Source of the DNA: a virus
Reading direction: 5' to 3' (one strand)
IMG/VR virus record: IMGVR_UViG_3300037882_000106
Coordinates: 1-32,573 of that record
Length of the DNA: 32,573 nt
Shown one piece after another: positions 1-27,096 of this stretch. Within the stretch, counting starts at the first letter, position 1, and each line of letters starts with the position of its first letter. The notes beneath the pieces were generated by a model that saw only the letters and a program-made list of their open reading frames with translations, did not search any database and was not told where the DNA came from. The position numbers and the translations under genes were made by a program.

Positions 1-287
1 ACGTGGATACCTGACGCCTCGGCGAGCAGCGCGGTCAGGTCGCACGTCTTGGCATACTCCCACGCTGCGTCGTTCGCGAATTCGTTCTCTTCGGACGCAT
101 CCACGGTGACGAGGTCCGGCCGATCCACCGCCACCAGTGCGCCGAGCGCGCAGTAGCACACGACACCGGTACGCCAGCCGAACAGCTCACCCTTGGTCCA
201 CGTACTTTCATCGGCGATGAGCGCACGCGCAGCCTTCAGTCTGGTCAGCTGACTGGCGGCGAGATCGGTGGCGATATGGACGTCCAT
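1..287 (-). CDS. Partial early protein, DUF6197-like
   Basis: The gene starts at ATG 287-285, overlapping the stop of the preceding gene by one base (TAATG), and stays open to the left edge, so 95 codons are visible and the C-terminus is missing. The N-terminus has a helix with the pattern LKAARALIADESTWTKGEL, followed by VVCYCALGAL. An 'ARALI..W.KG...CYCALGA' arrangement is typical of small phage and bacterial proteins grouped as DUF6197, whose function is unknown. This family assignment is from memory of the pattern. The strict overlap with the upstream early gene points to translational coupling. A promoterless position directly after the first early gene suggests an early, host-directed role, which is inference only. 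Confidence 0.7.
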   Translation of the reverse strand, partial: MDVHIATDLAASQLTRLKAARALIADESTWTKGELFGWRTGVVCYCALGALVAVDRPDLVTVDASEENEFANDAAWEYAKTCDLTALLAEASGIH

Positions 288-775
288 TAGTCCTCCTCGC
301 CGGAGTTGGCCAGCGCCTGCAACTTGGTGAGCATGGCCTCATCGCTCACGGTCGTGGCCTTGGACGCACGCTTGATGATACTGGCGATGGCCGCAGCGAT
401 ATCGAACACGGCGTCGGGTTCCTTGTCCGGGCTGAAGTCGAACCACGGCTGCGCCATGCACGCCGCCATGTCCGTCGTCTTGGCCTTGTCGTACAGGAAC
501 GGCGCTTCCTTCTTGTTGTCCCCGGTGTTGGCCACCAGTTTGCCGAACGCCAGACCCCACGCCGTGAGCGCCGACTTGCGGGCACCCTTGGGCAGCGCCA
601 GATACAGGCGGTTGAACAGCGTCACGTCTCCGTGCTGTTCGATATGCGCGAGGCAACCCACACCTGCGGCTTGGATGTCTGCATCCAGCTTCTTGCCCGT
701 GCTGGTGATGCGCTTGATCGTCGCCTCGATACCCGCCTTGTCGAGGATACCCGTGGCTTTCTTTGTGGCACTCAT
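287..775 (-). CDS. Conserved early phage protein of unknown function
   Basis: A 162-aa soluble protein, probably the first sizeable early gene. It carries the stretch LDADIQAAGVGCLAHIEQHG followed by DVTLFNRL, a pattern I recognise from early-region proteins of many T7-like podoviruses, none with a known function to my knowledge. The middle part is basic and hydrophobic (LPKGARKSALTAWGLAFGKL). The C-terminus is a predicted helix ending in an acidic tail (SGEED). No membrane segment or catalytic motif is visible. The ATG at 775 has only a weak GGTG ribosome-binding site, and the leader upstream is rich in hairpins, so translation may be modulated by structure. The one-base overlap with the next gene places both in one transcript fed by the sigma70 promoters at 1945-1647. 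Confidence 0.8.
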   Translation of the reverse strand: MSATKKATGILDKAGIEATIKRITSTGKKLDADIQAAGVGCLAHIEQHGDVTLFNRLYLALPKGARKSALTAWGLAFGKLVANTGDNKKEAPFLYDKAKTTDMAACMAQPWFDFSPDKEPDAVFDIAAAIASIIKRASKATTVSDEAMLTKLQALANSGEED

Positions 776-796
776 GTGCTTGCACCGTATGGTTAG

Positions 797-814
797 CGCA
801 GCGGTAGTGCTGCG
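797..814 (-). repeat. 6-bp hairpin in early leader
   Basis: Perfect inverted repeat CGCAGC / GCTGCG with a 6-base loop, about 20 bases upstream of the ATG at 775. In the mRNA it would lie just before the weak ribosome-binding site. Role unknown. Confidence 0.5.
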
Positions 815-893
815 GTCTGGACCCTCATGTAAGACACAGTGCGAATGTGCTTACACCTTGTCGCACCCTCGGAATCAATAAGGCGAAAGGTCG

Positions 894-910
894 GTTGCCT
901 CAGCGGCAAC
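894..910 (-). repeat. 6-bp hairpin in early leader
   Basis: Perfect inverted repeat GTTGCC / GGCAAC with a 5-base loop. On the transcribed strand it is followed by CGACCTTTCG, too poor in T for a typical intrinsic terminator. Confidence 0.45.
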
Positions 911-1017
911 AGGACACAGACGCTAATGACTTGAAGGTCCAGACCGTAGGACTACGCACTAGGCGCACCCACGGTATTTGTTCATCGTTCCGGCATCATG
1001 TGCGTTAGCTTCTAAGC

Positions 1018-1045
1018 CGTACTAGGTTCTTTCTGTCCTAGTACG
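1018..1045 (-). repeat. 9-bp perfect hairpin in early leader
   Basis: The strongest inverted repeat of the leader: CGTACTAGG and CCTAGTACG form a 9-bp stem around a 10-base loop that reads ACAGAAAGAA on the transcribed strand. There is no downstream T-run. The long stem with a purine-rich loop fits an RNase III-type processing site or a structured regulatory element better than a terminator. Confidence 0.55.
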
Positions 1046-1093
1046 CGGGTTTCCCCGTCACGTCACTCTTGACCGGCACCATGTCACGATTGC

Positions 1094-1109
1094 ATGCGTT
1101 GTCACGCAT
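1094..1109 (-). repeat. 6-bp hairpin in early leader
   Basis: Perfect inverted repeat ATGCGT / ACGCAT around a 4-base loop (GACA on the transcribed strand). It also contains an ATG that opens a 23-codon frame without a good ribosome-binding site. Confidence 0.45.
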
Positions 1110-1185
1110 ACTTAAGGGCTTCCCGTTGACCCTGCCCTAACACTTTGTCCATTACACCCGGTTTACACCGACAGTGCTATGTCGA

Positions 1186-1200
1186 TAGGCTACTAGCCTA
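1186..1200 (-). repeat. 6-bp hairpin in early leader
   Basis: Perfect inverted repeat TAGGCT / AGCCTA around a 3-base loop, next to a weaker 5-bp hairpin (CGACA / TGTCG) at 1169-1184. No T-run follows. Confidence 0.4.
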
Positions 1201-1284
1201 CCACTATCAACAGGCCGCAGCCCGTCTAGCTTTCACACGCCCACCTGCTACAGCTAGCGTGATACTGACCGCTTACTTCGTTGG

Positions 1285-1300
1285 ACCTGCTTACGCAGGT
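1285..1300 (-). repeat. Hairpin at the end of the 50-aa gene
   Basis: ACCTGC and GCAGGT form a 6-bp stem with a GTAA loop on the transcribed strand, and the first stem base is the last base of the stop codon of the 1300-1452 gene. No U-tract follows (CCAACGAAG), so it is more likely a 3'-end stabiliser or attenuation element than a full terminator. Confidence 0.4.
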
Positions 1301-1452
1301 TACAGCGTTGCCACGATGTACCGACCCTTGCCCCACATGCCGCAGAGCTTATCGGCTGCCCAACGGGCATCCCGTTCGCGGACATACCGCTTAACGGTTT
1401 CGCCAGTGTGCTTATCCTTGACCGCATAGCGGTTAGTGGTACGTCGTGACAT
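1300..1452 (-). CDS. Small basic early protein, 50 aa
   Basis: A 50-codon frame from ATG 1452 to TAA 1300. It starts MSRRTTNRYAVKDKHTGETV and then runs KRYVRERDARWAADKLCGMW to a hydrophobic end. The ribosome-binding site is good: AGAGGA about 6 bases before the ATG. The protein is strongly basic in its first two thirds, and the K-D-K-H-T-G-E-T-V-K-R-Y motif resembles a beta-hairpin as seen in small nucleic-acid-binding phage proteins. That reading is inference. I do not recognise a family. It is the first gene downstream of the sigma70 promoters, a position often taken by small host-takeover proteins. A TTGACA at 1486-1481 lies just upstream, but its -10 match (GAGGAT) is poor and overlaps the ribosome-binding site. 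Confidence 0.65.
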   Translation of the reverse strand: MSRRTTNRYAVKDKHTGETVKRYVRERDARWAADKLCGMWGKGRYIVATL

Positions 1453-1646
1453 GTTGCATCCTCTCACACTTACAACGGTTTGTCAACTGCTACTTGCATC
1501 GGTGTCGCTGGTACGTCTGTCCTGCTATCGGCTAGTCTTATCCGCCTGTGTAGGTTAGGGATTCGACATGCGGGCATCATCCTATCAGTGTCTTGAGGTA
1601 CGTTCCTTGTACCGCACTGCGAACCGCATCTGTTACCGTGTTGCCT

Positions 1647-1675
1647 ATACTACACTATTCCGTTCCCTGTGTCAA
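1647..1675 (-). promoter_or_regulatory. Early sigma70 promoter (third)
   Basis: On the minus strand a perfect -35 TTGACA (1675-1670) is followed after exactly 17 bp by TAGTAT (1652-1647), which matches TATAAT at the key T1, A2, A5 and T6. It is the promoter closest to the 50-aa early gene. Confidence 0.75.
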
Positions 1676-1747
1676 CACCTGATTACTGAACCTGTGTATT
1701 ACCTTGATCCTGTCCAGTGGTGTCCTGCTTACCTATCCTTCCTCCGT

Positions 1748-1776
1748 ACTCTACACCGCCCAGCTTTCGCTGTCAA
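1748..1776 (-). promoter_or_regulatory. Early sigma70 promoter (second)
   Basis: TTGACA at 1776-1771, a 17-bp spacer, then TAGAGT at 1753-1748 on the minus strand. It lies just downstream of the phage promoter-like repeat at 1796-1820, so host and phage polymerase start sites would be interleaved. Confidence 0.75.
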
Positions 1777-1795
1777 CAGATGCTAGACGCGGCTT

Positions 1796-1820
1796 CTGTG
1801 TATGTAGGGTGACGAAACTC
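1796..1820 (-). promoter_or_regulatory. Phage promoter-like repeat, copy 1
   Basis: The minus strand reads GAGTTTCGTCACCCTACATA followed by CACAG, matching copies at 8907-8928, 24133-24155 and 24197-24221. All four face the direction of transcription. The likely role is a promoter for the phage RNA polymerase. Here, before the early genes, it resembles in position the left-end phage promoter phiOL of T7. The assignment rests on repetition, orientation and location, not on similarity to a known phage promoter. Confidence 0.65.
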
Positions 1821-1916
1821 GAAGAGGTATACAGATACCGCCCGAGTGTACTAGTACAGGTAGTACAGTTCCAGTCCCTACCTGTCCCAGCCGTGGCCTA
1901 AGCGACCATGTGACAC

Positions 1917-1945
1917 AGCCTAGCACCGATGTTGCGACCCGTCAA
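1917..1945 (-). promoter_or_regulatory. Early sigma70 promoter (first)
   Basis: TTGACG at 1945-1940, a 17-bp spacer, then TAGGCT at 1922-1917 on the minus strand. The -35 has five of six consensus bases and the -10 keeps T1, A2 and T6. Together with the two similar boxes at 1776-1748 and 1675-1647 it makes a tandem early promoter array, as T7-like phages have. Confidence 0.65.
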
Positions 1946-2053
1946 CACCGACCCGACGAACGGTTACGGCCCTGCTACCGCACCAGCCTACTACCTCGGT
2001 GGTGTTGTAGGTGACCAGCACACCTGACCCTGCGGCCGGAGAAGCGGAGGGAA

Positions 2054-2155
2054 CGCGCGCGTGTGCGTCCGCGTGGGTGTGTGCGTGTACGCACAGGTGC
2101 GGGCCTGCGTGCGCGTGTGGGCGCGTTCGTGCGGGCATACGGGGGCGTGCGCGGG
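2054..2155. repeat. GC/GT-alternating low-complexity tract
   Basis: Around 100 bases made almost entirely of G, C and T on the plus strand, with long alternating purine-pyrimidine runs such as GCGCGCGTGTGCG and GTGTGTGCGTGTACGCAC. This composition is unlike anything else in the window. Such alternation favours left-handed (Z) DNA under negative supercoiling, by general DNA-structure knowledge. It begins about 55 bases after the o-spanin stop and about 110 bases before the first early promoter. Confidence 0.7.
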
Positions 2156-2209
2156 AGCTTCTATTGGAGTCGGTCCCGCGCGGCAGCAAACCAAATTTCG
2201 GCCCGTGGT

Positions 2210-2518
2210 TCAGTCGTCTAGGAACGTCAGCTCGTCGCTGCACTTATTCCGCAGTCCTTTGCACAGCTGGTCGTAGTAGGCCCGGAGTGCAGCCTTCTCC
2301 ACATTGCATGCACGAAGCGACTGCTGGTTATCCTTGGCGACACGCACGATGTCCTTACCCTTAGCCGGGCCGTCCGGCAAGTAATGGATCACGCAGGGCT
2401 GCAACAGGTCATCGCTTGGCTTTGGAATCCGGGTCGCGCAGGATGTCAGCAACATCGTCAGGCACGTCAGACTCAGCAAACTCAGGGTACTCACGTAGAG
2501 CGGCTTCTTCTTTCGCAT
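2210..2518 (-). CDS. Rz1: o-spanin (Rz1-like outer-membrane lipoprotein)
   Basis: Outer-membrane subunit of the spanin complex, which fuses the inner and outer membranes in the last step of lysis of Gram-negative hosts. Starting at ATG 2518, the 102-aa product has a basic start (MRKKK), a hydrophobic stretch and the lipobox LTSC with Cys27 as the predicted lipidated residue. The mature part begins CATRIPKPSDD and is less proline-rich than lambda Rz1. It has four further cysteines. The gene starts inside the i-spanin gene in another frame, overlaps it by 110 bases and runs on past its stop, the overlapping class of Rz/Rz1 architecture. A longer in-frame start at 2599 would bury the signal peptide and is rejected. 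It is the last late gene before the end region. Confidence 0.85.
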   Translation of the reverse strand: MRKKKPLYVSTLSLLSLTCLTMLLTSCATRIPKPSDDLLQPCVIHYLPDGPAKGKDIVRVAKDNQQSLRACNVEKAALRAYYDQLCKGLRNKCSDELTFLDD

Positions 2519-2750
2519 CTTGTTCTGCCTTGATTTCTTGGATGGCACGAGTGCCGGTACGCCATACGGAGTCTGCTGCCTTCTGGCCCAGGGTTTCACG
2601 GATGACCTGATGTTGTACGACCACTTTGCGCTTGAGTCCCCATACCGTCAGAGCGATACAGGTAATCACTAGGGCGGCCATGAGCCAACCCATAGCAGCG
2701 GCCGACAGCTTTGCCGACCAGTAGCCGGGAGTGAACTTACTTATGGCCAT
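2409..2750 (-). CDS. Rz: i-spanin (Rz-like inner-membrane protein)
   Basis: Inner-membrane spanin subunit. The 113-aa frame from ATG 2750 has one strong transmembrane segment (about residues 18-39, GWLMAALVITCIALTVWGLK) followed by a charged, helical region rich in Glu, Ala and Lys (IRETLGQKAADSVWR onwards) that fits the periplasmic coiled coil reaching the outer-membrane lipoprotein. The start overlaps the end of the endolysin gene by 14 bases. An upstream in-frame extension to 2933 overlaps the endolysin too deeply and adds no plausible sequence. The partner lipoprotein gene starts within this gene at 2518. The product is somewhat shorter than lambda Rz (153 aa). Confidence 0.82.
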   Translation of the reverse strand: MAISKFTPGYWSAKLSAAAMGWLMAALVITCIALTVWGLKRKVVVQHQVIRETLGQKAADSVWRTGTRAIQEIKAEQDAKEEAALREYPEFAESDVPDDVADILRDPDSKAKR

Positions 2751-3258
2751 GATATACCACCTTGGATGGTTTGATGCACAGTACACGTTCTTCGTAGCGG
2801 CGCTTAACGAGCCCGTTGAGCTTACGCTTGTCGGCGTACACCCATCGCGGTAGCTGATTACACGCCTCTGTCCATCGTTTCTGGTTGATGAGCTTGAGCA
2901 TAGTGCTGGTGCGGAAGTTCTCAGCGCCCGCATTGAACACGAAAGACGTGTATACGTCGTACTCGTTCTGCGTCAGTGGGGTCTTGACGTACTTCCTTAC
3001 AGCTAGCTCGGCTTCCATGAGGTCTTCACGTAGCCACTGGGTACACTGGTCGTGGGTTGCGACCATGCCGGGACGGACTCCCTTGGTGTGTCCATAGCAG
3101 ATGGTGTACGGGGCACCGCCAGTACCCGGATCGGGATAGGCTGCATACCGCAAGCCCTCGTGCTTCTGCACAAGGGCTACACCACCAATGGACAACAGGG
3201 AACCGACCAGCGCAGCACCAAGGGCAACGCCTACAGTACGCTTGCTGGATTCAGTCAT
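2737..3258 (-). CDS. SAR endolysin, GH24 lysozyme
   Basis: Muralytic lysozyme that degrades peptidoglycan at lysis. The 173-aa product has the P21/P22-type catalytic arrangement: Glu34 in KHEGLRY, Asp43 in YPDPGTGG and Thr52 in YTICYGHT. Residues 9-30 are a weakly hydrophobic segment rich in Gly, Ala, Val and Ser (TVGVALGAALVGSLLSIGG) with no cleavage site, the hallmark of a signal-arrest-release domain, as in the phiKMV endolysin. Such enzymes are exported in an inactive, tethered form and freed when the membrane is depolarised. Cys54 close to Thr52, and the other cysteines, could take part in disulfide control, which is inference. The ATG at 3258 overlaps the preceding stop by one base. Confidence 0.9.
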   Translation of the reverse strand: MTESSKRTVGVALGAALVGSLLSIGGVALVQKHEGLRYAAYPDPGTGGAPYTICYGHTKGVRPGMVATHDQCTQWLREDLMEAELAVRKYVKTPLTQNEYDVYTSFVFNAGAENFRTSTMLKLINQKRWTEACNQLPRWVYADKRKLNGLVKRRYEERVLCIKPSKVVYHGHK

Positions 3259-3446
3259 TAGCTTTGCACCACGTTAGGAGGGAGGATGACGTTGGCAGAC
3301 ATCCAGTTGTGTACGTCCGCACAGTGGACCACAACGTTAGCCGCATGCTCCGGGTGTGCCAAAGCGTAATCGCGGATCGCGGTGTGGAGCTGACTCAGTA
3401 GAACCTGTAGCGGAAAGTCATGCGGAAACATCGGAGCAACTGTCAT
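3258..3446 (-). CDS. Small protein of unknown function, 62 aa
   Basis: A 62-aa frame coupled on both sides by one-base overlaps (TGATG at its start, TAATG at its end) in the run between large terminase and endolysin. The sequence has an amphipathic helix (VLLSQLHTAIRDYALAHPEH) and the motif HCADVHNW. There is no transmembrane segment, so it is not an obvious holin despite lying directly upstream of the endolysin. I do not recognise a family. Confidence 0.65.
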   Translation of the reverse strand: MTVAPMFPHDFPLQVLLSQLHTAIRDYALAHPEHAANVVVHCADVHNWMSANVILPPNVVQS

Positions 3447-3685
3447 CAGCTTTCTTCCTCACCGCCAACGTCGCCCTCACCACCGGCATCGTCCACGGCA
3501 TTACCCGTCTGCGAGCGCAAGAGGCCCACATGGGTTTCAAGATAGTCCATCAGCAGCTCGCCCTTATCGGTTTCGCCGGTACGATGAGCAGTCACGAGAT
3601 AGCGACGGATGTGTTCTAGCTCTCGTTTGATGTAGTTCGCGCGCGGATAGTCTGCGAGCAGGAGTCGGGGAGTTACGACATTCAT
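3446..3685 (-). CDS. Small protein of unknown function, 79 aa
   Basis: A 79-aa frame starting at ATG 3685 in an ATGA overlap with the previous gene. GAGGAAA upstream serves as ribosome-binding site. Residues 1-55 form a charged helical part (ANYIKRELEHIRRYLVTAH), while the tail is Gly/Glu/Asp-rich (DDAGGEGDVGGEEES), suggesting a flexible acidic C-terminus. No membrane segment or known motif is visible. It is co-translated with its neighbours in the terminase-lysis interval. Confidence 0.65.
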   Translation of the reverse strand: MNVVTPRLLLADYPRANYIKRELEHIRRYLVTAHRTGETDKGELLMDYLETHVGLLRSQTGNAVDDAGGEGDVGGEEES

Positions 3686-3861
3686 TTGGTTTCCTCGGTA
3701 GCGTCGGGAGTGATGGAGTCGATGTCAGCAATTGCGGCAACGAAGTATTCTCGCATGACCTGAGTCTTTGCGGGAGTATCCTTCGCATACCGAACCGCCG
3801 CAGCGACCTCGCGATTCAGCTGAGTGCTGCGCAGATAGGTCTTAAACGGGATACGTTGCAT
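3682..3861 (-). CDS. Small protein of unknown function, 59 aa
   Basis: A 59-aa frame from ATG 3861, two bases after the large terminase stop. The ribosome-binding site GGAGG lies inside the last terminase codons, four bases before the ATG, and it decides this start over the in-frame extension to 3933, which would lie within the terminase gene. The sequence is basic at the N-terminus (MQRIPFKTYLRSTQLNR) with an Ala-rich helix (EVAAAVRYAKDT). No family recognised. Confidence 0.65.
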   Translation of the reverse strand: MQRIPFKTYLRSTQLNREVAAAVRYAKDTPAKTQVMREYFVAAIADIDSITPDATEETK

Positions 3862-3862
3862 G

Positions 3863-5638
3863 TTACCTCCGATATTTAGTGAGCATGTTGGGACGACCGA
3901 CTTTGCCGGGAGCTTTGATTCGATTGTGTCCAAGGGGATCGCGCATCCACTTCATCGCGCGCTGTTGTTCCATCTTTGCTATGGCCTTGTCTTGATCTAT
4001 TGCGATCTCGGTGAGCCACTTACGTACTGCACCCTCAAGTGCATCCGCCCTATCGTCGTGCTTCAGACACTTCCTGATTCGGGTCAGCTTTGCGAGCTGG
4101 TGGAATAGGCTGTATGTGATGCGCTTCGCGGGATCATACCGCTGAGTCTGTGCGTCGTCCTGCTCGATCACGTCTTCCATGATGACCAGCGCGCCACGGC
4201 CAATGACTGGCTCAAGCGTACTGATGATCCGGGTTTCCTTTTGGCCGCTGACGAACTCTTCTTCGATCTTACCCTTCCACTTCCTCTGAAGAATAGGGAG
4301 CCAGACCTTGACGAATGCACCGTGACCCATGTTCTTCTCGACGCCGATGCTGTTGGGCTTCCAACGTTCTGCGATGTCCGCCAGTTCCTGCAAGGGCTCA
4401 GGCTCGTAGCCACCGGGAATGCCACCACACGCAAGCAGATAGACAGTACCGTTGAGGAATCCTGTCACAGCGTAGCCGGTTTCGTCTGCATTCTCACCAC
4501 CACCAGCCGGATCGACGTGCATGTAGATACCCTGCAACTCGGCCGTCTCTTGTGATAGTTCATGTGGGGCAGTAAGACTAAAAGAGAACCCCGAAGAGGT
4601 AAACGGTCTGAGGGCCATAGGCCCGAAGCCGCGCGTAACCACCATAGGGAATCGCTTGCCGCCTGTGCCGTTCAGTACCACAATGTTGTGCAGCTTGATC
4701 GGATAACGCAGGGAGTCCATGAGCTTGGTGTTGAGCATGTACTGAAGTTGGAAGCCGGACTCTGCCCATATCTTCCACTTCTGCATCAGCTTATCTTCGT
4801 TGAACAGTTCGGGATCAGTAGGCTGCCCCTTGTCACCGAGTAGACCACCGCCGTACTGAAGTTCAGGATTCTCTTGAAGCCGTTGCATCAGTGAAGGTGC
4901 GAGGAACGCGCCGTAGTTCTTCAGTTCATCAGCAGTCGGGTAACGACCCGGCCACACACGAAGATCAAAGCCTTGAGCAGGCAGCGCATTGTAAACACTG
5001 TCCGTACTCTGCGGCGTACCAAGGTACACGATACGTGCCCAGTCATTAGTAGTCCACGCAGCGAACTCACGAATGAGGTTCGCCAACCGCTCACGCATCA
5101 CTGCGGTCATGGAGTTTTTGGGAGACTCGATGTCATCCGCAATCACGAGGTCCGCACGTTTACCGGGAAGGTTTGCACCAATGCCCACGCACGCTACAGA
5201 CGGCGACTTGTCGATGCCCTTGAGCGTGTAGTGTACGTCGAACGCTTCGACTGACGTACGCTGTATGCGCTTGTCAGGACACAGACATTCCAAGATCGGG
5301 ACTGTGGTTATGAGCTGCTGTACCAGTGTTGCGATCTCGTTTGCGGTAGATTCACCAGCAGAGACGATGACGACACGGGTCTTTGGATTATGGATCAGAG
5401 AGAACACAGCGAACATTGCGGTAATGGTAGACTTAGCCTCACCGCGCTGTGCTTGGATCATCAGGTTCTGCGGGCCGTACTGAAGGTAGGATGCGATGTC
5501 GTGCTGCATCCAAGTCGGGGAGAATCCCAACTCCTTCATCATGTCTTCCATGAAGCGGTTGAACGATGTGTAATGCTTCTGCAACAGCTCCAACTTTCTC
5601 CATCGGAGCTGTCCAGCTTCTGCGCTTTCGCGCGCCAT
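3863..5638 (-). CDS. terL: Terminase large subunit (T7 gp19-like)
   Basis: ATPase-nuclease motor that packages concatemeric phage DNA into proheads through the portal. At 591 aa it is close to T7 gp19 (586 aa). The N-terminal ATPase has a variant Walker A, QAQRGEAKST (residues 62-71), a Walker B with ADLVIADDIE (162-171) and a coupling motif VYLGTPQS (about 204-211). The C-terminal RNase H-like nuclease shows acidic residues in MHVDPAGGGENADETG (Asp376), SIGVEKN (Glu434) and HDDRADALEGAV (Asp532). The start at 5638 overlaps the small terminase stop by one base, the usual coupling of the two subunits. The final codons contain the ribosome-binding site of the next gene. Confidence 0.93.
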   Translation of the reverse strand: MARESAEAGQLRWRKLELLQKHYTSFNRFMEDMMKELGFSPTWMQHDIASYLQYGPQNLMIQAQRGEAKSTITAMFAVFSLIHNPKTRVVIVSAGESTANEIATLVQQLITTVPILECLCPDKRIQRTSVEAFDVHYTLKGIDKSPSVACVGIGANLPGKRADLVIADDIESPKNSMTAVMRERLANLIREFAAWTTNDWARIVYLGTPQSTDSVYNALPAQGFDLRVWPGRYPTADELKNYGAFLAPSLMQRLQENPELQYGGGLLGDKGQPTDPELFNEDKLMQKWKIWAESGFQLQYMLNTKLMDSLRYPIKLHNIVVLNGTGGKRFPMVVTRGFGPMALRPFTSSGFSFSLTAPHELSQETAELQGIYMHVDPAGGGENADETGYAVTGFLNGTVYLLACGGIPGGYEPEPLQELADIAERWKPNSIGVEKNMGHGAFVKVWLPILQRKWKGKIEEEFVSGQKETRIISTLEPVIGRGALVIMEDVIEQDDAQTQRYDPAKRITYSLFHQLAKLTRIRKCLKHDDRADALEGAVRKWLTEIAIDQDKAIAKMEQQRAMKWMRDPLGHNRIKAPGKVGRPNMLTKYRR

Positions 5639-5913
5639 TAGTTCACCTGACCACTACTGAAGTCAAGTTGTTCAAGCGCCGCGCTCAAGTCGGTGGCGTC
5701 TGCCTTCATTGGAGAGCTGGCAGTATTCAGCGCAGCCTGCAACTTGGTCAAGTCATCGCCCTCTGCCGGGGCACAGGTGATGTTGTTGTCCTTCAGCAAC
5801 TTGATTGCGTTACTGATGTCGGATGCCGACACTTCGCCACTCTCAATCTTGGTAGCGAGATATCGCGCCACGGCCTTATGGAGCAGGCCAAGCTCACTCT
5901 CACTCGCACTCAT
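5638..5913 (-). CDS. terS: Terminase small subunit (T7 gp18-like)
   Basis: DNA-recognition subunit of the packaging terminase. The product is 91 aa, compared with 89 aa for T7 gp18, and lies between holin and large terminase exactly as in T7. It is a helical, acidic protein; the N-terminal half carries ESELGLLHKAVARYLATKIE and SASDISNAIKLLKDNNI, the helical pattern of gp18-like subunits. The start ATG overlaps the holin stop (ATGA), with GGAGGAAA eight bases upstream as a strong ribosome-binding site. Identification rests mainly on position, size and the helix pattern. Confidence 0.82.
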   Translation of the reverse strand: MSASESELGLLHKAVARYLATKIESGEVSASDISNAIKLLKDNNITCAPAEGDDLTKLQAALNTASSPMKADATDLSAALEQLDFSSGQVN

Positions 5914-6113
5914 GCGGTTTCCTCCAATCGGTTCTTGCGCATGATTGCGCGGTGTTCTAGTACACGTAGGGTCATCTGCATCATTGCATAGACTATAGCC
6001 AAAGTAGTAACGATTGCTGCGCCGTACTCGCTGATGAAGCTCAAGTACAACGCACCGCCAGTTAGCGGAACGTTACGTGCAAGCTCCGTCGTAACCGAGG
6101 GTGCGTCGTTCAT
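5910..6113 (-). CDS. Class II-type holin (T7 gp17.5-like)
   Basis: Small inner-membrane protein that times lysis by permeabilising or depolarising the membrane. It is 67 aa, the same length as T7 gp17.5, and sits in the same place between tail fibre and small terminase. One clear hydrophobic segment (EYGAAIVTTLAIVYAMMQMT, about residues 29-48) is followed by a basic, charged tail (LEHRAIMRKNRLEE), and the N-terminal part has a second weak hydrophobic stretch (LTGGALYLSFIS). T7 gp17.5 has the same layout. Depolarisation by it would release the SAR endolysin encoded about 2.7 kb downstream. The ribosome-binding site AAGGATG overlaps the preceding stop region. Confidence 0.75.
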   Translation of the reverse strand: MNDAPSVTTELARNVPLTGGALYLSFISEYGAAIVTTLAIVYAMMQMTLRVLEHRAIMRKNRLEETA

Positions 6114-8891: not shown

Positions 8892-8906
8892 GCAGCCTCT
8901 CCTAAT

Positions 8907-8928
8907 CTGTGTATGTAGGGTGACGAAA
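8907..8928 (-). promoter_or_regulatory. Phage promoter-like repeat, copy 2
   Basis: The minus strand has TTTCGTCACCCTACATACAC plus AG, identical over its core to the copies at 1796-1820 and 24197-24221. It ends 15 bases before the ATG of the tail fibre gene, leaving room only for the ribosome-binding site. It probably starts a transcript for the fibre, adhesin, holin, terminase and lysis genes. Confidence 0.65.
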
Positions 8929-24155: not shown

Positions 24156-24196
24156 GCCGTTTGACTTAACCGTCTGGTGTTCAGGGACGGCGAGTT
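24151..24196 (-). terminator. 10-bp stem between the two promoter-like repeats
   Basis: AACTCGCCGT on the transcribed strand (24196-24187) can pair with ACGGCGAGTT (24160-24151) over 10 bp, with a 26-base loop. The 3' arm runs into GTTTTGTC of copy 3. It lies directly after the RNA polymerase gene. It could be a terminator for transcripts from upstream, an RNase III-type processing site, or both; the long loop makes an intrinsic terminator less certain. Confidence 0.5.
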
Positions 24197-24221
24197 GTGT
24201 ATGTAGGGTGACGAAACTCAC
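24197..24221 (-). promoter_or_regulatory. Phage promoter-like repeat, copy 4
   Basis: The minus strand reads GTGAGTTTCGTCACCCTACA followed by TACAC. It overlaps the stop codon of the RNA polymerase gene (TGA, 24220-24218) and faces the structural genes. With copy 3 it forms a tandem pair. Confidence 0.65.
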
Positions 24222-26662
24222 CGGAAGAAGTAGGGGGAGTCCAACACCTGTCGGATGTCGAGTGTGCCAAGCTCAGGCGGTGGCGGAAGCTGGGGGTACG
24301 TCTCCCGCAGACGGGCCAGCGGGTCGAAGTTCTCGTACATCCACACGAACCGCTCGCGGATGGTCGTGTATAGGGCTGGCGCGTCCGCTGCGTGAGTGCC
24401 GTAGTCGTCGTGGATCATCGCAAGGGAGTCGATGCCCTGCGCCACCAGCGCGTTGACCGTGAGCGTCAGGTGGGTTGCGTCAAGGGAGTGGACGAAGTTC
24501 GGAGCGATCCCGTTCTTGTGGCGGTTCACGTCCGGTGTGCTGGTGTCGTGATGGAGCTTCAGAATCGCGCCACCGCAGAGCTTCGTGCGTATCTGGTGTA
24601 CGTCCTGCTCCCAATACGCCTGAAGCACAGGGAACCCGCTAGGCGTCATCCACTTGATTTCCGTATAGCCCTCTCGGATGAGCTGGCGTGCAGCCTGTTG
24701 CAGCCACGCCATTGCCTCGCGCGCTTTGACTACCACTGCTCCGATTGCTTTCCATACGTGGTGCGAAAGATAATTCGCAGCCTTGACGTACTCTACCTTA
24801 TCGAACGTAGCGACAACCCCAGTCCGCAGGTAATCCTGCACGATGAACTCTGCGCACGAATACCGTGTAGAGCCGTAGGGAAGCGTCATCACAGATCGTT
24901 TTACGAGAGTACGGTTCATGCCATGAGTAATCCAACGGTCCCGAAAGCCACGCTCGTCCTGTTCCGCACTCAATAATAATTGCAGTGTAACATCGGCGAC
25001 CATTTGGTAAATATCTTTCGGTGACGTAGAAGGAATCAAGTTGGTGGCTGTCCCGCCCAGCTCGTCCCTGAGCATCGCGGAGAAGTTCTGCAATCCATTG
25101 CAGCTCCCGTCCATCCCAACCACTAAGCGTGACGCAAAGGTTGAAGGGTCTGCACACCAATCCCTGTACTCCATGCACCATGCAAGGAACTGCAAAGGGG
25201 CCGCCGCGTCCTGCCATCCAGTATGCGATACTGGGTCGTTCGCGAACGAAAGCAACAGCTGGTGTCTCTCGTTCACCCACTCTACTTGTTCGGGGAAGGT
25301 CACCTTGTCGTAACCGAAGCGCGATGCTCCCGATATCTTGAACCATCTGATCTGTTCCTCTGTTGTTATCGGCTTACCGTTCGCAAACTCAAGCAATGCT
25401 TTCTGCAAATCACTGCCTTGCGGACTGACGCCAGTAGTCTGTGCGTACTTCCTGCCACGGAAGTCCTCAAAGTAGACGAACCACAGCTTCTCGTAGTCCT
25501 CAAACTTCGTTGCAATCTTCATCGCGTTGGTGAAGCGGCCCCACTTGGTGCCCCGCACCTTGCGCTCGGTATGCCACTCTGCTACGCTACGCTTCCAAAC
25601 AGAGAACGCCTCAGCTTGTGCTGGGGTCATATCCTCTTTCTTCATGTCATCAGTTAGCCACTCAGGCTTGTCCGGCTTTGGACTCTCTGCTTGACTGATA
25701 ATCTCTTCCATGTCGAAATGCTTGGCCACGTCACGGATGGCATGTAGCAAGGGCTTGTTGATGCGCCACTCTGTGCGCTGGAGTGCATTGATGCACGCAA
25801 TTTCTGCACTCATGTCTGCATCGCGGAAGTTATCGCGGTGAGATGGATGGGTCTTAACCATCCAAGGCATCAGCCTGCGCATTTCTTTCGTGTGGAATCC
25901 GCCTTCGGTTACGCTCGTCCAATTCTTCGGCGGCTCTACGCACGGTAGGAAGTACGGCGTGGACTCTATAGCAAATCCCTTAATCTGGTTGATCAACGCC
26001 ACACACTCTTCAGTGAATGTGACGACGATCTTGGTGCGTATGTTGTTCTTGTGTACGTGCGGGACGGTTACCTGCTTTGTATGCACCATGCCGAGCTTCG
26101 ACAGCTGCTCCATGAGGTACGATCCAACCTGATCACGGTCACCGCTACTCCACTCGTTGAAGCAGATGCCAGCCTTGCGTGCCTGCATCTTGAATACCGT
26201 CATGCGATGGCGTTCGTTGCGCGACATACGACGCTCGAAGTCATTGACGAGATGATAGAACAGGTCAGGCTCGATCTCTGCGAAGTGGTCAAGCACGTAC
26301 TCGTGGTACACACTGCGGCCGACGTCAGCAACAACACTGCGGCCAGCGCCTTCCGTTAAATTCTCACCTTTACCCGCTAACAGTGCGACCATCGCGGATC
26401 GCACAGCGATGTACGCCGTAGCTTCAGGATCAACTGGAGCCAGCAGACGCACATGCGCCTGCCGCCTGCCCACTTTCTTTACAGCGAGGTCTTCTCGGAT
26501 GATCTCCGCAAGCGGAAGAACGAACCGACGATAGATCGCTTGGGCATAGGGGTTGTTATGAGCGCGCCCCTTTTCTTCGTTACCCTGCATCGATCCAATC
26601 ATCCGAGTCTTGCCGAACTGGTAAGCCTCTAGTTCGAGTTCCGCCTGTGTCTGACGCATCAT
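24218..26662 (-). CDS. Single-subunit RNA polymerase (T7-type)
   Basis: Phage DNA-dependent RNA polymerase that transcribes the late genes. From ATG 26662 it is 814 aa, close to the phiKMV enzyme (about 816 aa) and shorter than T7 (883 aa). Motif A VGMDGSCNGLQNFSAMLRDE carries Asp518, motif B RTLVKRSVMTLPYG carries Lys588 and Tyr596, and motif C MIHDDYGTH carries Asp752, the counterparts of T7 D537, K631, Y639 and D812. The C-terminus is aromatic (YFFR). The ATG overlaps the upstream stop (ATGATG, with AAGGGG directly before it); translation could begin at 26662 or 26659. The in-frame TTG at 26686 is rejected. Its place before the structural genes is the phiKMV-type arrangement. Its likely promoter is the repeated element at 24197-24221, 24133-24155, 8907-8928 and 1796-1820. 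Confidence 0.96.
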   Translation of the reverse strand: MMRQTQAELELEAYQFGKTRMIGSMQGNEEKGRAHNNPYAQAIYRRFVLPLAEIIREDLAVKKVGRRQAHVRLLAPVDPEATAYIAVRSAMVALLAGKGENLTEGAGRSVVADVGRSVYHEYVLDHFAEIEPDLFYHLVNDFERRMSRNERHRMTVFKMQARKAGICFNEWSSGDRDQVGSYLMEQLSKLGMVHTKQVTVPHVHKNNIRTKIVVTFTEECVALINQIKGFAIESTPYFLPCVEPPKNWTSVTEGGFHTKEMRRLMPWMVKTHPSHRDNFRDADMSAEIACINALQRTEWRINKPLLHAIRDVAKHFDMEEIISQAESPKPDKPEWLTDDMKKEDMTPAQAEAFSVWKRSVAEWHTERKVRGTKWGRFTNAMKIATKFEDYEKLWFVYFEDFRGRKYAQTTGVSPQGSDLQKALLEFANGKPITTEEQIRWFKISGASRFGYDKVTFPEQVEWVNERHQLLLSFANDPVSHTGWQDAAAPLQFLAWCMEYRDWCADPSTFASRLVVGMDGSCNGLQNFSAMLRDELGGTATNLIPSTSPKDIYQMVADVTLQLLLSAEQDERGFRDRWITHGMNRTLVKRSVMTLPYGSTRYSCAEFIVQDYLRTGVVATFDKVEYVKAANYLSHHVWKAIGAVVVKAREAMAWLQQAARQLIREGYTEIKWMTPSGFPVLQAYWEQDVHQIRTKLCGGAILKLHHDTSTPDVNRHKNGIAPNFVHSLDATHLTLTVNALVAQGIDSLAMIHDDYGTHAADAPALYTTIRERFVWMYENFDPLARLRETYPQLPPPPELGTLDIRQVLDSPYFFR

Positions 26663-27096
26663 TGCCCCTTGATTGTCTTGATCCAATAATTTGCACTGGG
26701 TGTGGCCCAGCGGTATTGCGGATTGTGCATCCGGAATCCTTGCGATATCAGCGAGTTCGCCGACGCTGGATTATCCGTTGTGTCAGTGAGGACCGTAGTC
26801 ACTCCCTGCTTCTTGGCGTACTGTACGCGGGCGCGGATCAATCGCTTCTGGATACCATGTCCACGAGCGGCCGGCAGGACGCCGGCTCTCGATAGGTAGG
26901 CATCTGTCTTGTTAATCATCCGCATCGCTGCGAACGCCACAGGCAAACCATCTTGATATGCAATCCACCACTCGTCACCTTTCAATGCGCGCGGCTCATC
27001 ATGAGGAAGGCATGTAGTTTGCAGCCATAGAATGCAGTGGGAGATCGCCTCTTTACTCGCGTCAACTTTCTTTACTACGACTCTCCCAGTGGTCAT
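26659..27096 (-). CDS. GNAT family N-acetyltransferase
   Basis: A 145-aa acetyltransferase of the GNAT superfamily. The acetyl-CoA-binding motif is complete: SRAGVLPAARGHGIQKRLIR (about residues 69-88, with R-G-H-G as the loop), and the closing part has DNPASANSLISQGFRMHNPQ, the usual N-x-x-S...L-x-x-x-G-F arrangement. The central strands WWIAYQDGLPVAFAAMR fit the substrate-side sheet. Many T7-type phages do not carry such a gene here. The target is unknown; host polymerase, tRNA, toxins or small molecules are all possible. It is coupled by ATGA overlaps to both the DNA ligase upstream and the RNA polymerase downstream. Confidence 0.88.
   Translation of the reverse strand: MTTGRVVVKKVDASKEAISHCILWLQTTCLPHDEPRALKGDEWWIAYQDGLPVAFAAMRMINKTDAYLSRAGVLPAARGHGIQKRLIRARVQYAKKQGVTTVLTDTTDNPASANSLISQGFRMHNPQYRWATPSANYWIKTIKGQ

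Follow-up and report, generated by a model that had tools for sequence, protein, structure and literature searches.

The window analysed here is a virus record of 32,573 bases, in which the assignable genes all lie on the minus strand in a phiKMV-like order. Its one close relative, contig IMGVR_UViG_3300014042_000001 (referred to below as L005 and L007), has the same layout. The preliminary description of this DNA had placed the region of interest in the early leader of a T7-like phage; the placement is correct, but the leader belongs to the minus strand. Between the end of the spanins (2210) and the first conserved early gene (775), the late end of the genome joins the early one. Leftward from the spanins lie, in order, the block 2111-2210, a phage promoter, two host-like promoters, a 50-aa ORF, the hairpin region and the 162-aa early gene. 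The genes and promoters that frame the locus are as follows.

24218-26686, minus strand: single-subunit RNA polymerase (PHROG; best match in phage records 58% identical)
5910-6113, minus strand: holin (PHROG)
5638-5913, minus strand: small terminase (PHROG)
3863-5638, minus strand: probable large terminase, a name that we presume to apply (77% identical to L007)
2737-3258, minus strand: endolysin (PHROG)
ending at 2210, minus strand: spanins (PHROG)
1795-1811, minus strand: probable phage RNA polymerase promoter, the 17-mer CACCCTACATACACAGA (role proposed from its repeated copies)
1748-1776, minus strand: host sigma-70-like promoter TTGACA-N17-TAGAGT (promoter scan)
1647-1675, minus strand: host sigma-70-like promoter TTGACA-N17-TAGTAT (promoter scan)
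1300-1452, minus strand: small early ORF with a conserved start region; its 50-aa product shows 48% identity to L005 396-551 across 40 aa
287-775, minus strand: first conserved early gene, encoding a 162-aa protein of PHROG 1448 (E 7.5e-52)

The first conserved early gene is matched by 530 phage records at E of 1e-3 or lower, mostly over part of its length. The ORF at 1300-1452 and its counterpart at L005 396-551 form a small conserved early ORF of 50-51 aa; the window copy has no PHROG match, and phage records give weak matches at best (E 0.3). ORF1 of LKA1 is alike in size and place, and sequence similarity to it is absent. Three copies of the 17-mer CACCCTACATACACAGA occur in the window, all on the minus strand (1795-1811, 8906-8922 and 24194-24210; two exact, the third with 2 mismatches), where 0.04 were expected, and two more in L007 (2578-2594 and 10666-10682), a pattern suggesting that it is probably a phage RNA polymerase promoter kept in the relative. 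Two sigma-70-like sites were found against 0.8 expected by shuffling, and by eye L005 carries the same hexamers and spacing twice. Directly after the spanin gene, the non-coding block at 2111-2210 (minus) is 81% identical to L005 and may mark the end of the genome or serve in packaging. The stretch 2050-2160, also close to the genome end, is very GC-rich, of low complexity with alternating CG and TG, and contains many overlapping inverted repeats.

The preliminary description had also reported a lack of genes, and this holds for 776-1299, where no convincing minus-strand ORF of at least 15 aa was found; the conserved 50-aa ORF, however, ends at 1300. Its observation that no T-runs follow the hairpins is borne out by the absence of terminator-like sites from 700-2300 on both strands, and an intrinsic terminator or attenuator was rejected because a GC-rich stem followed by a T-run is absent there. 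ARAGORN found no tRNA or tmRNA in the window. A terminator, a tRNA, coding ORFs within 776-1299, a DNA element and a trans-acting RNA are all unsupported, and the suggestion of a non-coding RNA, taken as a separate trans-acting RNA, gained no positive support. Megablast found no close DNA relatives of window 1-4000 in phages, and distant blastn of the window and L005 leaders gave a single chance match in one search, to two records of the same phage, and nothing in the other.

Hairpins and a long stem before the first early gene

The structural features of the leader, in the direction of the minus strand, are listed here.

1285-1300, minus strand: hairpin, 6 bp, loop 4; no L005 counterpart found
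1186-1200, minus strand: hairpin, 7 bp with a 1-nt loop, equivalent to 6 bp with a 3-nt loop; no L005 counterpart found
1094-1109, minus strand: hairpin, 6 bp, loop 4; no L005 counterpart found
1018-1045, minus strand: hairpin, 9 bp, loop 10; no L005 counterpart found
932-955, minus strand: 5' arm of stem P1, 24 positions with a 15-position core CGGTCTGGACCTTCA (strongest helix in the window; MFE fold)
894-910, minus strand: hairpin P2 inside P1, a perfect stem of 6 bp, loop 5
856-879, minus strand: conserved block containing GTGCGA (861-866), 21 of 24 bases as in L005
829-854, minus strand: hairpin P4, with loop TTCGCAC (839-845) complementary to GTGCGA (hand reading of the strings; putative loop contact)
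804-827, minus strand: 3' arm of P1, 28 nt before the early-gene start codon (helix scan; compensatory changes with L005)
797-814, minus strand: hairpin, 6 bp, loop 6, competing with the base of P1; L005 counterpart at 942-960
783-788, minus strand: weak ribosome-binding-like stretch ACGGTG before the early gene, pairing with about 971-976 in the extended fold of 760-985

All six perfect stems named in the preliminary description (797-814, 894-910 and the four from 1018 to 1300) are present, and the hairpin at 1285-1300 touches the stop codon of the 50-aa ORF because that ORF ends at 1300. Within 797-1300, an interval whose bounds are set by the hairpins themselves, five hairpins with a stem of at least 6 bp and a loop of at most 8 nt were counted against 0.70 in 300 dinucleotide shuffles, none of which reached five. 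The neutral interval, 776-1299, holds four, against 0.63 (P 0.003) or 0.69 (200 shuffles, P 0.015), and the excess vanishes at stems of at least 7 bp (0 or 1 found). At stems of at least 6 bp, three coding control stretches gave 1, 0 and 1 hairpins, all near their own shuffles, and the non-coding control 1453-2209 gave 2 against 1.14 in shuffles.

The largest structure of the region, P1, was omitted from the earlier list. It is the top helix in the 32.6 kb on either strand at a 300-nt span, with a score of 44 (the next are 37 on the plus strand and 35 on the minus strand), and its 24 positions comprise 21 Watson-Crick pairs, 1 G.T, 1 A.C and 1 other. With host-like promoters upstream on the same strand and the start codon 28 nt downstream, P1 is presumably transcribed. 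The 145 nt from 804 to 948 fold with a z of -5.24, and the longer stretch 760-985, which takes in the early-gene start region, with a z of -5.78; in both cases 0 of 200 shuffles folded as well.

Comparison with L005 locates the conserved part of this structure. Leader blastn gave four matches below E 0.01. Three lie at the genome end, around the phage promoter and at the start of the small ORF; the fourth, window 879-773, covers the element with an E of 1e-12. The L005 element folds with a z of -4.83 (0/200 shuffles as good). In a hand alignment checked by script, the 21 aligned positions of P1 comprise 11 identical pairs, 5 in which both bases differ (giving G.T in two cases), 2 in which one base differs and 3 unpaired in one phage; MAFFT alignments misplace the arms of P1 and P2, so the pair counts come from the hand alignment. 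By eye, the counterpart of P2 at L005 859-873 lies in the same order and has a different stem sequence. Read from the strings, P4 in L005 keeps the 7-nt loop TTCGCAC (7/7) and a bulged T, while in its stem both bases differ in 3 of the 8 shared pairs.

The other four hairpins fared differently. In the window, 956-1299 folds with a z of -3.2 (0/100 shuffles as good), whereas the L005 stretch equivalent to the hairpins at 1018-1300 has a z of +0.64, with 144 of 200 shuffles as good. Because L005 keeps P1 while its four-hairpin stretch folds no better than shuffles, the conserved thing, as judged from the two sequences, is the element at 804-955 and not the hairpin chain. The preliminary description had let its idea of a structured leader depend on a hairpin count above that of shuffled sequence and on compensatory changes in relatives, and both came out for structure; the support, however, belongs to the element of about 150 nt at 804-955 rather than to a chain of six hairpins. 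A real, selected structure at 804-955 is very likely.

Inside P1, the six complementary bases of GTGCGA and TCGCAC are unchanged in the window and L005, with no covariation, which suggests that the block and the P4 loop may make a loop contact, proposed here as a kissing loop or pseudoknot. The stem flanking GTGCGA is incomplete in the window (a weak first hairpin), and when L005 is folded freely TTCGCAC is taken up by a different helix. These features could be read as a new structured RNA family with an activity of its own, in which GTGCGA/TCGCAC would bind a protein, of the phage or of the host, or another RNA, with P1 as the closing stem only. Block and loop are unchanged at 21/24 and 7/7 bases in two otherwise differing leaders whose stems change on both sides, and no Rfam family matches: Rfam 15 gave no match at the gathering cut-off in the window, L005, L045, L036, L066 or L073, and nothing up to E 5 at the element in a search of window 1-3000. 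We nevertheless regard such a family as unlikely, since it has two members only after two scans of viral contigs with the conserved-block pattern, which returned the known relative, and a nucleotide profile search of 84 sequences, in which only the window, L005 and overlapping copies of both passed the inclusion threshold. Other phages, by eye, keep the long stem and lack the inner domain of the window and L005. A kissing-hairpin scan of 31 leaders gave 12 hits against 3.8 by mononucleotide shuffling, several of them in AT-rich repeats, and neither GTGCGA nor the P4 element was reported; the architecture was absent elsewhere. As far as these sequences go, the inner domain with its putative loop-loop contact is a real peculiarity of the window and L005.

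Long stems in other phiKMV-like leaders

Further loci were obtained as 29 contigs via early-protein alignment, and more via the terminase and named phages. When the top helix was sought up to 2.5 kb from the early gene, it fell in the 1000 nt before that gene in 17 of 31 loci, some of them close kin, where 6.8 were expected (p 6e-5). Among the 260 nt that precede the first ORF, the top helix reached p<=0.05 in 17/17 previously inspected leaders, a set chosen after the helix had been seen, in 7 of 12 fresh sites (60 shuffles each) and in one of the four sites of a second fresh set (100 shuffles). Among the fresh phages, Brevundimonas AA is nearly identical to Cd1, Percy has two look-alikes in KSC and Lullwater, and two positions were tested in each of ISAO8 and LKA1; DoCa9, which is not a leader, was left out of the second-set count, and Burkholderia Paku and phage oldone were left unscored, the first early gene being unclear or the phage belonging to another group. 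For some metagenome contigs (e.g. L021, L030, L042) the first ORF is the start codon taken after the helix. No significant helix was found in Aristophanes, Kurenuki, NED111, WD615, ISAO8 (first position), LKA1 (both positions) or KP34 (p 0.09).

The leader helices span 16-31 positions including mismatches, and their sequences are mostly unrelated. Perfect helices of 20 bp occur in SnaP-R1 and in L045, where the helix closes a 150-nt stretch, and SB5 has a perfect one of 21 bp; the helix of Cd1 measures 23. A common helix sequence is found in Andromeda, Bf7, SeaP2 and partly L024. The leaders of L009, L012, L013, L018, L024 and L037 carry a nearly unchanged stem CGGTGGTTCCTNA..TNAGAAACTACCG, which is conserved in sequence, unlike other leaders; in Andromeda and Bf7 its 3' arm contains a GAGG. 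The highest score among the loci scanned belongs to L035, in which a near-perfect helix of 27 positions closes a 248-nt stretch (1888-2135). On average, leaders fold with a mean z of -1.03 (496 windows) against -0.69 for coding sequence (583); they fold only modestly better than coding, and therefore the statement that leaders are structured is by itself a weak claim.

Under symmetric scoring, the gene-strand pairs in 25 helices comprise 480 Watson-Crick, 44 G.T, 11 A.C and 22 others. The excess of G.T over A.C has a p of 4e-6, though the leaders were picked by a G.T-tolerant score and the strand bias may be inflated. Because G.T exceeds A.C, 44 to 11, selection probably acts on the gene-strand RNA. 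The same bias bears on the notion of a DNA-level element near the genome end, such as a replication origin, a cruciform or a packaging signal. The region does adjoin the junction of the late and early ends, and inverted repeats can act as DNA, but the gene-strand bias, the closeness of the helix to the first early ORF and the existence of a separate conserved genome-end block at 2111-2210 make a DNA element very improbable.

Chance hairpins in a GC-rich leader are hardly credible as a general account. Four of the six stems have no L005 counterpart, and in 10 other leaders perfect-hairpin counts exceed shuffles without being individually significant (P 0.055-0.575); chance may still account for the hairpins at 1018-1300. 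For P1, however, chance is untenable in view of its fold z, its helix rank, the fresh leaders, the compensatory changes and the G.T bias.

The hairpin at 797-814 shares bases with the 3' arm of P1, as does its L005 counterpart, and similar alternatives recur elsewhere. A short perfect hairpin formed from part of the 3' arm and part of the downstream sequence is present in 11 of 24 leaders, most of them chosen after the helix had been seen, against 1.65 expected when the 30 downstream bases are shuffled, and 0 of 2000 shuffles reach 11; it is missing in the other 13. The count is 9/22 against 1.45 without the window and L005, 6/19 against 1.35 (1/2000 shuffles) without the five phages first named for the idea, and 3/5 against 0.31 (2/2000 shuffles) among the fresh phages scored, whose sequences had been seen before scoring. 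The rule was widened after L026 had been seen, so that the 5' strand may run past the arm, and Brevundimonas AA, KSC and Lullwater were left unscored as kin of scored phages; Lullwater has an alternative hairpin of 5 bp with a 9-nt loop. A mirror hairpin on the 5' side, planned as a control, occurs in 6 of 24 leaders against 1.67 (8/2000 shuffles), four of which also have the 3' hairpin; since this count is above chance, it is a finding and not a null. In L036, L021, L066, L067 and L073, hairpins of 7-8 bp pair the 5' base of P1 with upstream sequence, and in P14 a 6-bp hairpin does so.

Mutually exclusive hairpins in 11 of 24 leaders are what would be expected if P1 were a translational control or stabiliser that masks or exposes the ribosome site of the first early gene, the 3' hairpin being the other state of a switch opened by ribosomes, a protein or the order of transcription. 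The ribosome region is paired in the extended fold, and in Andromeda and Bf7 a GAGG just before the start codon sits in the 3' arm itself. The helix sequence, however, is mostly unconserved, and by eye the purine-rich stretch lies outside the stem in phiKMV, L021, L030 and L042, so that hiding the ribosome site is not a common feature. We consider translational control of this kind conceivable but not probable.

Proposed RNase III processing of the early message

Processing by host RNase III, which the preliminary description had mentioned and set aside, is now the mechanism that we favour, because an RNA helix of about two turns on the gene strand keeps its length and place, mostly not its sequence, before the first early gene. 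Stems cut by RNase III are near-continuous double-stranded RNA of about two helical turns, and P1 has this double-strand length by prediction. We hold with roughly even confidence that host RNase III processes P1 and that the resulting end folds anew into a hairpin cap, leaving the ribosome site free. What computation shows is the predicted structure, its gene-strand bias, its placement ahead of the first early ORF in many relatives and a surplus of alternative hairpins; the model adds, as proposed steps, that the leader is transcribed, that RNase III reads and cuts the stem, that the end is capped, that translation is released and that the loops make contact.

Host RNA polymerase would start near 1776 and 1675 on the minus strand and give a long leader. 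The stretch from 955 to 804 would fold so that P1 closes a domain holding P2, the conserved block and P4 with a loop complementary to that block, and the extended stem base would pair with the ribosome region of the first conserved early gene. P1 would then be a double-stranded substrate recognised by shape by the host enzyme, and a cut in it would create the 5' end of the early message. The freed 3' arm could form the short hairpin 797-814 with downstream sequence as a 5' cap, the cut would make the ribosome-like stretch at 783-788 single-stranded, and the 5' arm could likewise refold with upstream sequence, as predicted in 6 of 24 leaders. Against the RNase III reading count the conserved inner block and the P4 loop, which it does not need, and the occurrence of the inner domain in two phages only. 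So do the shorter helices of T7, the 5 of 12 and 3 of 4 fresh sites that lack a significant helix, and the 13 of 24 leaders that lack the 3' hairpin.

Several known systems can be compared with P1. In T7, R0.3 is an RNase III site just before the first gene, and the T7 sites carry an internal loop. According to PMC4858673, RNase III cuts host-made T7 early RNA at five sites and a phage kinase raises the activity of the enzyme. Four of the phages compared here, P14, Brevundimonas AA, Kurenuki and Cd1, also have an annotated early kinase; of these, Kurenuki is without a significant helix. The T7 early sites resemble P1 in being hairpins in host-transcribed early RNA near the starts of early genes. 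In the same test at six T7 gene starts, however, the top helices span 9-17 positions and reach p<=0.05 only before gene 1.3 (1/6). The helices before genes 0.5, 1.1 and 1.3 share AAGGTC..GAGTGGCCTT, which by eye the arms of P1 lack in this orientation. P1, by contrast, has 24 positions nearly all paired, a folded domain of 104 nt on top and no sequence shared across phages. Since T7 leaders have shorter helices, with one of six positions at p<=0.05, P1 is not a T7-type site and is at most another form of the same principle.

The RNase III hairpin of the phage lambda N leader is a long leader stem directly before the first early gene, and its cutting relieves a block of translation; P1 is alike in that position, in a different phage group. 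Stems of ribosomal RNA precursors are long and near-perfect, close a folded domain and are cut on both strands by RNase III, whereas the domain closed by P1 is about 100 nt long, is not rRNA and has no Rfam match. Nearer to the window, phiKMV and LUZ19 have similar leaders, with 473 and 433 nt from the last annotated host promoter to the first annotated ORF and a 23-position stem that ends 14 nt before ORF1/gp1. Their stems differ in having a short span (50 nt) and hence no inner P2/P4 domain, and phiKMV also lacks the 3' alternative hairpin. No such element is annotated in the first 4 kb of the feature tables of either phage.

Titles and abstract openings in the literature on RNase III with phiKMV, LUZ19 and Autographiviridae, and on phiKMV and LUZ19 leaders and transcript mapping, mention nothing of the element, and the same is true of those on T7 or lambda RNase III. 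A term search of PMC10134795, on phage LUZ100, turned up neither RNase III nor leader nor hairpin.

A wider and more tentative version of the RNase III reading, which we offer as a speculation well short of even confidence, is that the stems directly ahead of the first early gene in many phiKMV-like phages are a strand-exchange device free of sequence, whose base can swap pairing partners with its flanks, so that one RNase III cut would leave hairpin-capped ends and an open early ribosome site, and that the lineage of the window added a conserved loop-loop domain, which may act as a sensor or binding site and so control the cut. If RNase III does process these stems, its control of early messages would extend from the T7 group to many phiKMV-like phages, with a different design in which long stems are selected for shape, not sequence, and are accompanied by alternative end-capping hairpins. 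The prediction would cover the isolates phiKMV, LUZ19, Cd1, Percy and SnaP-R1.
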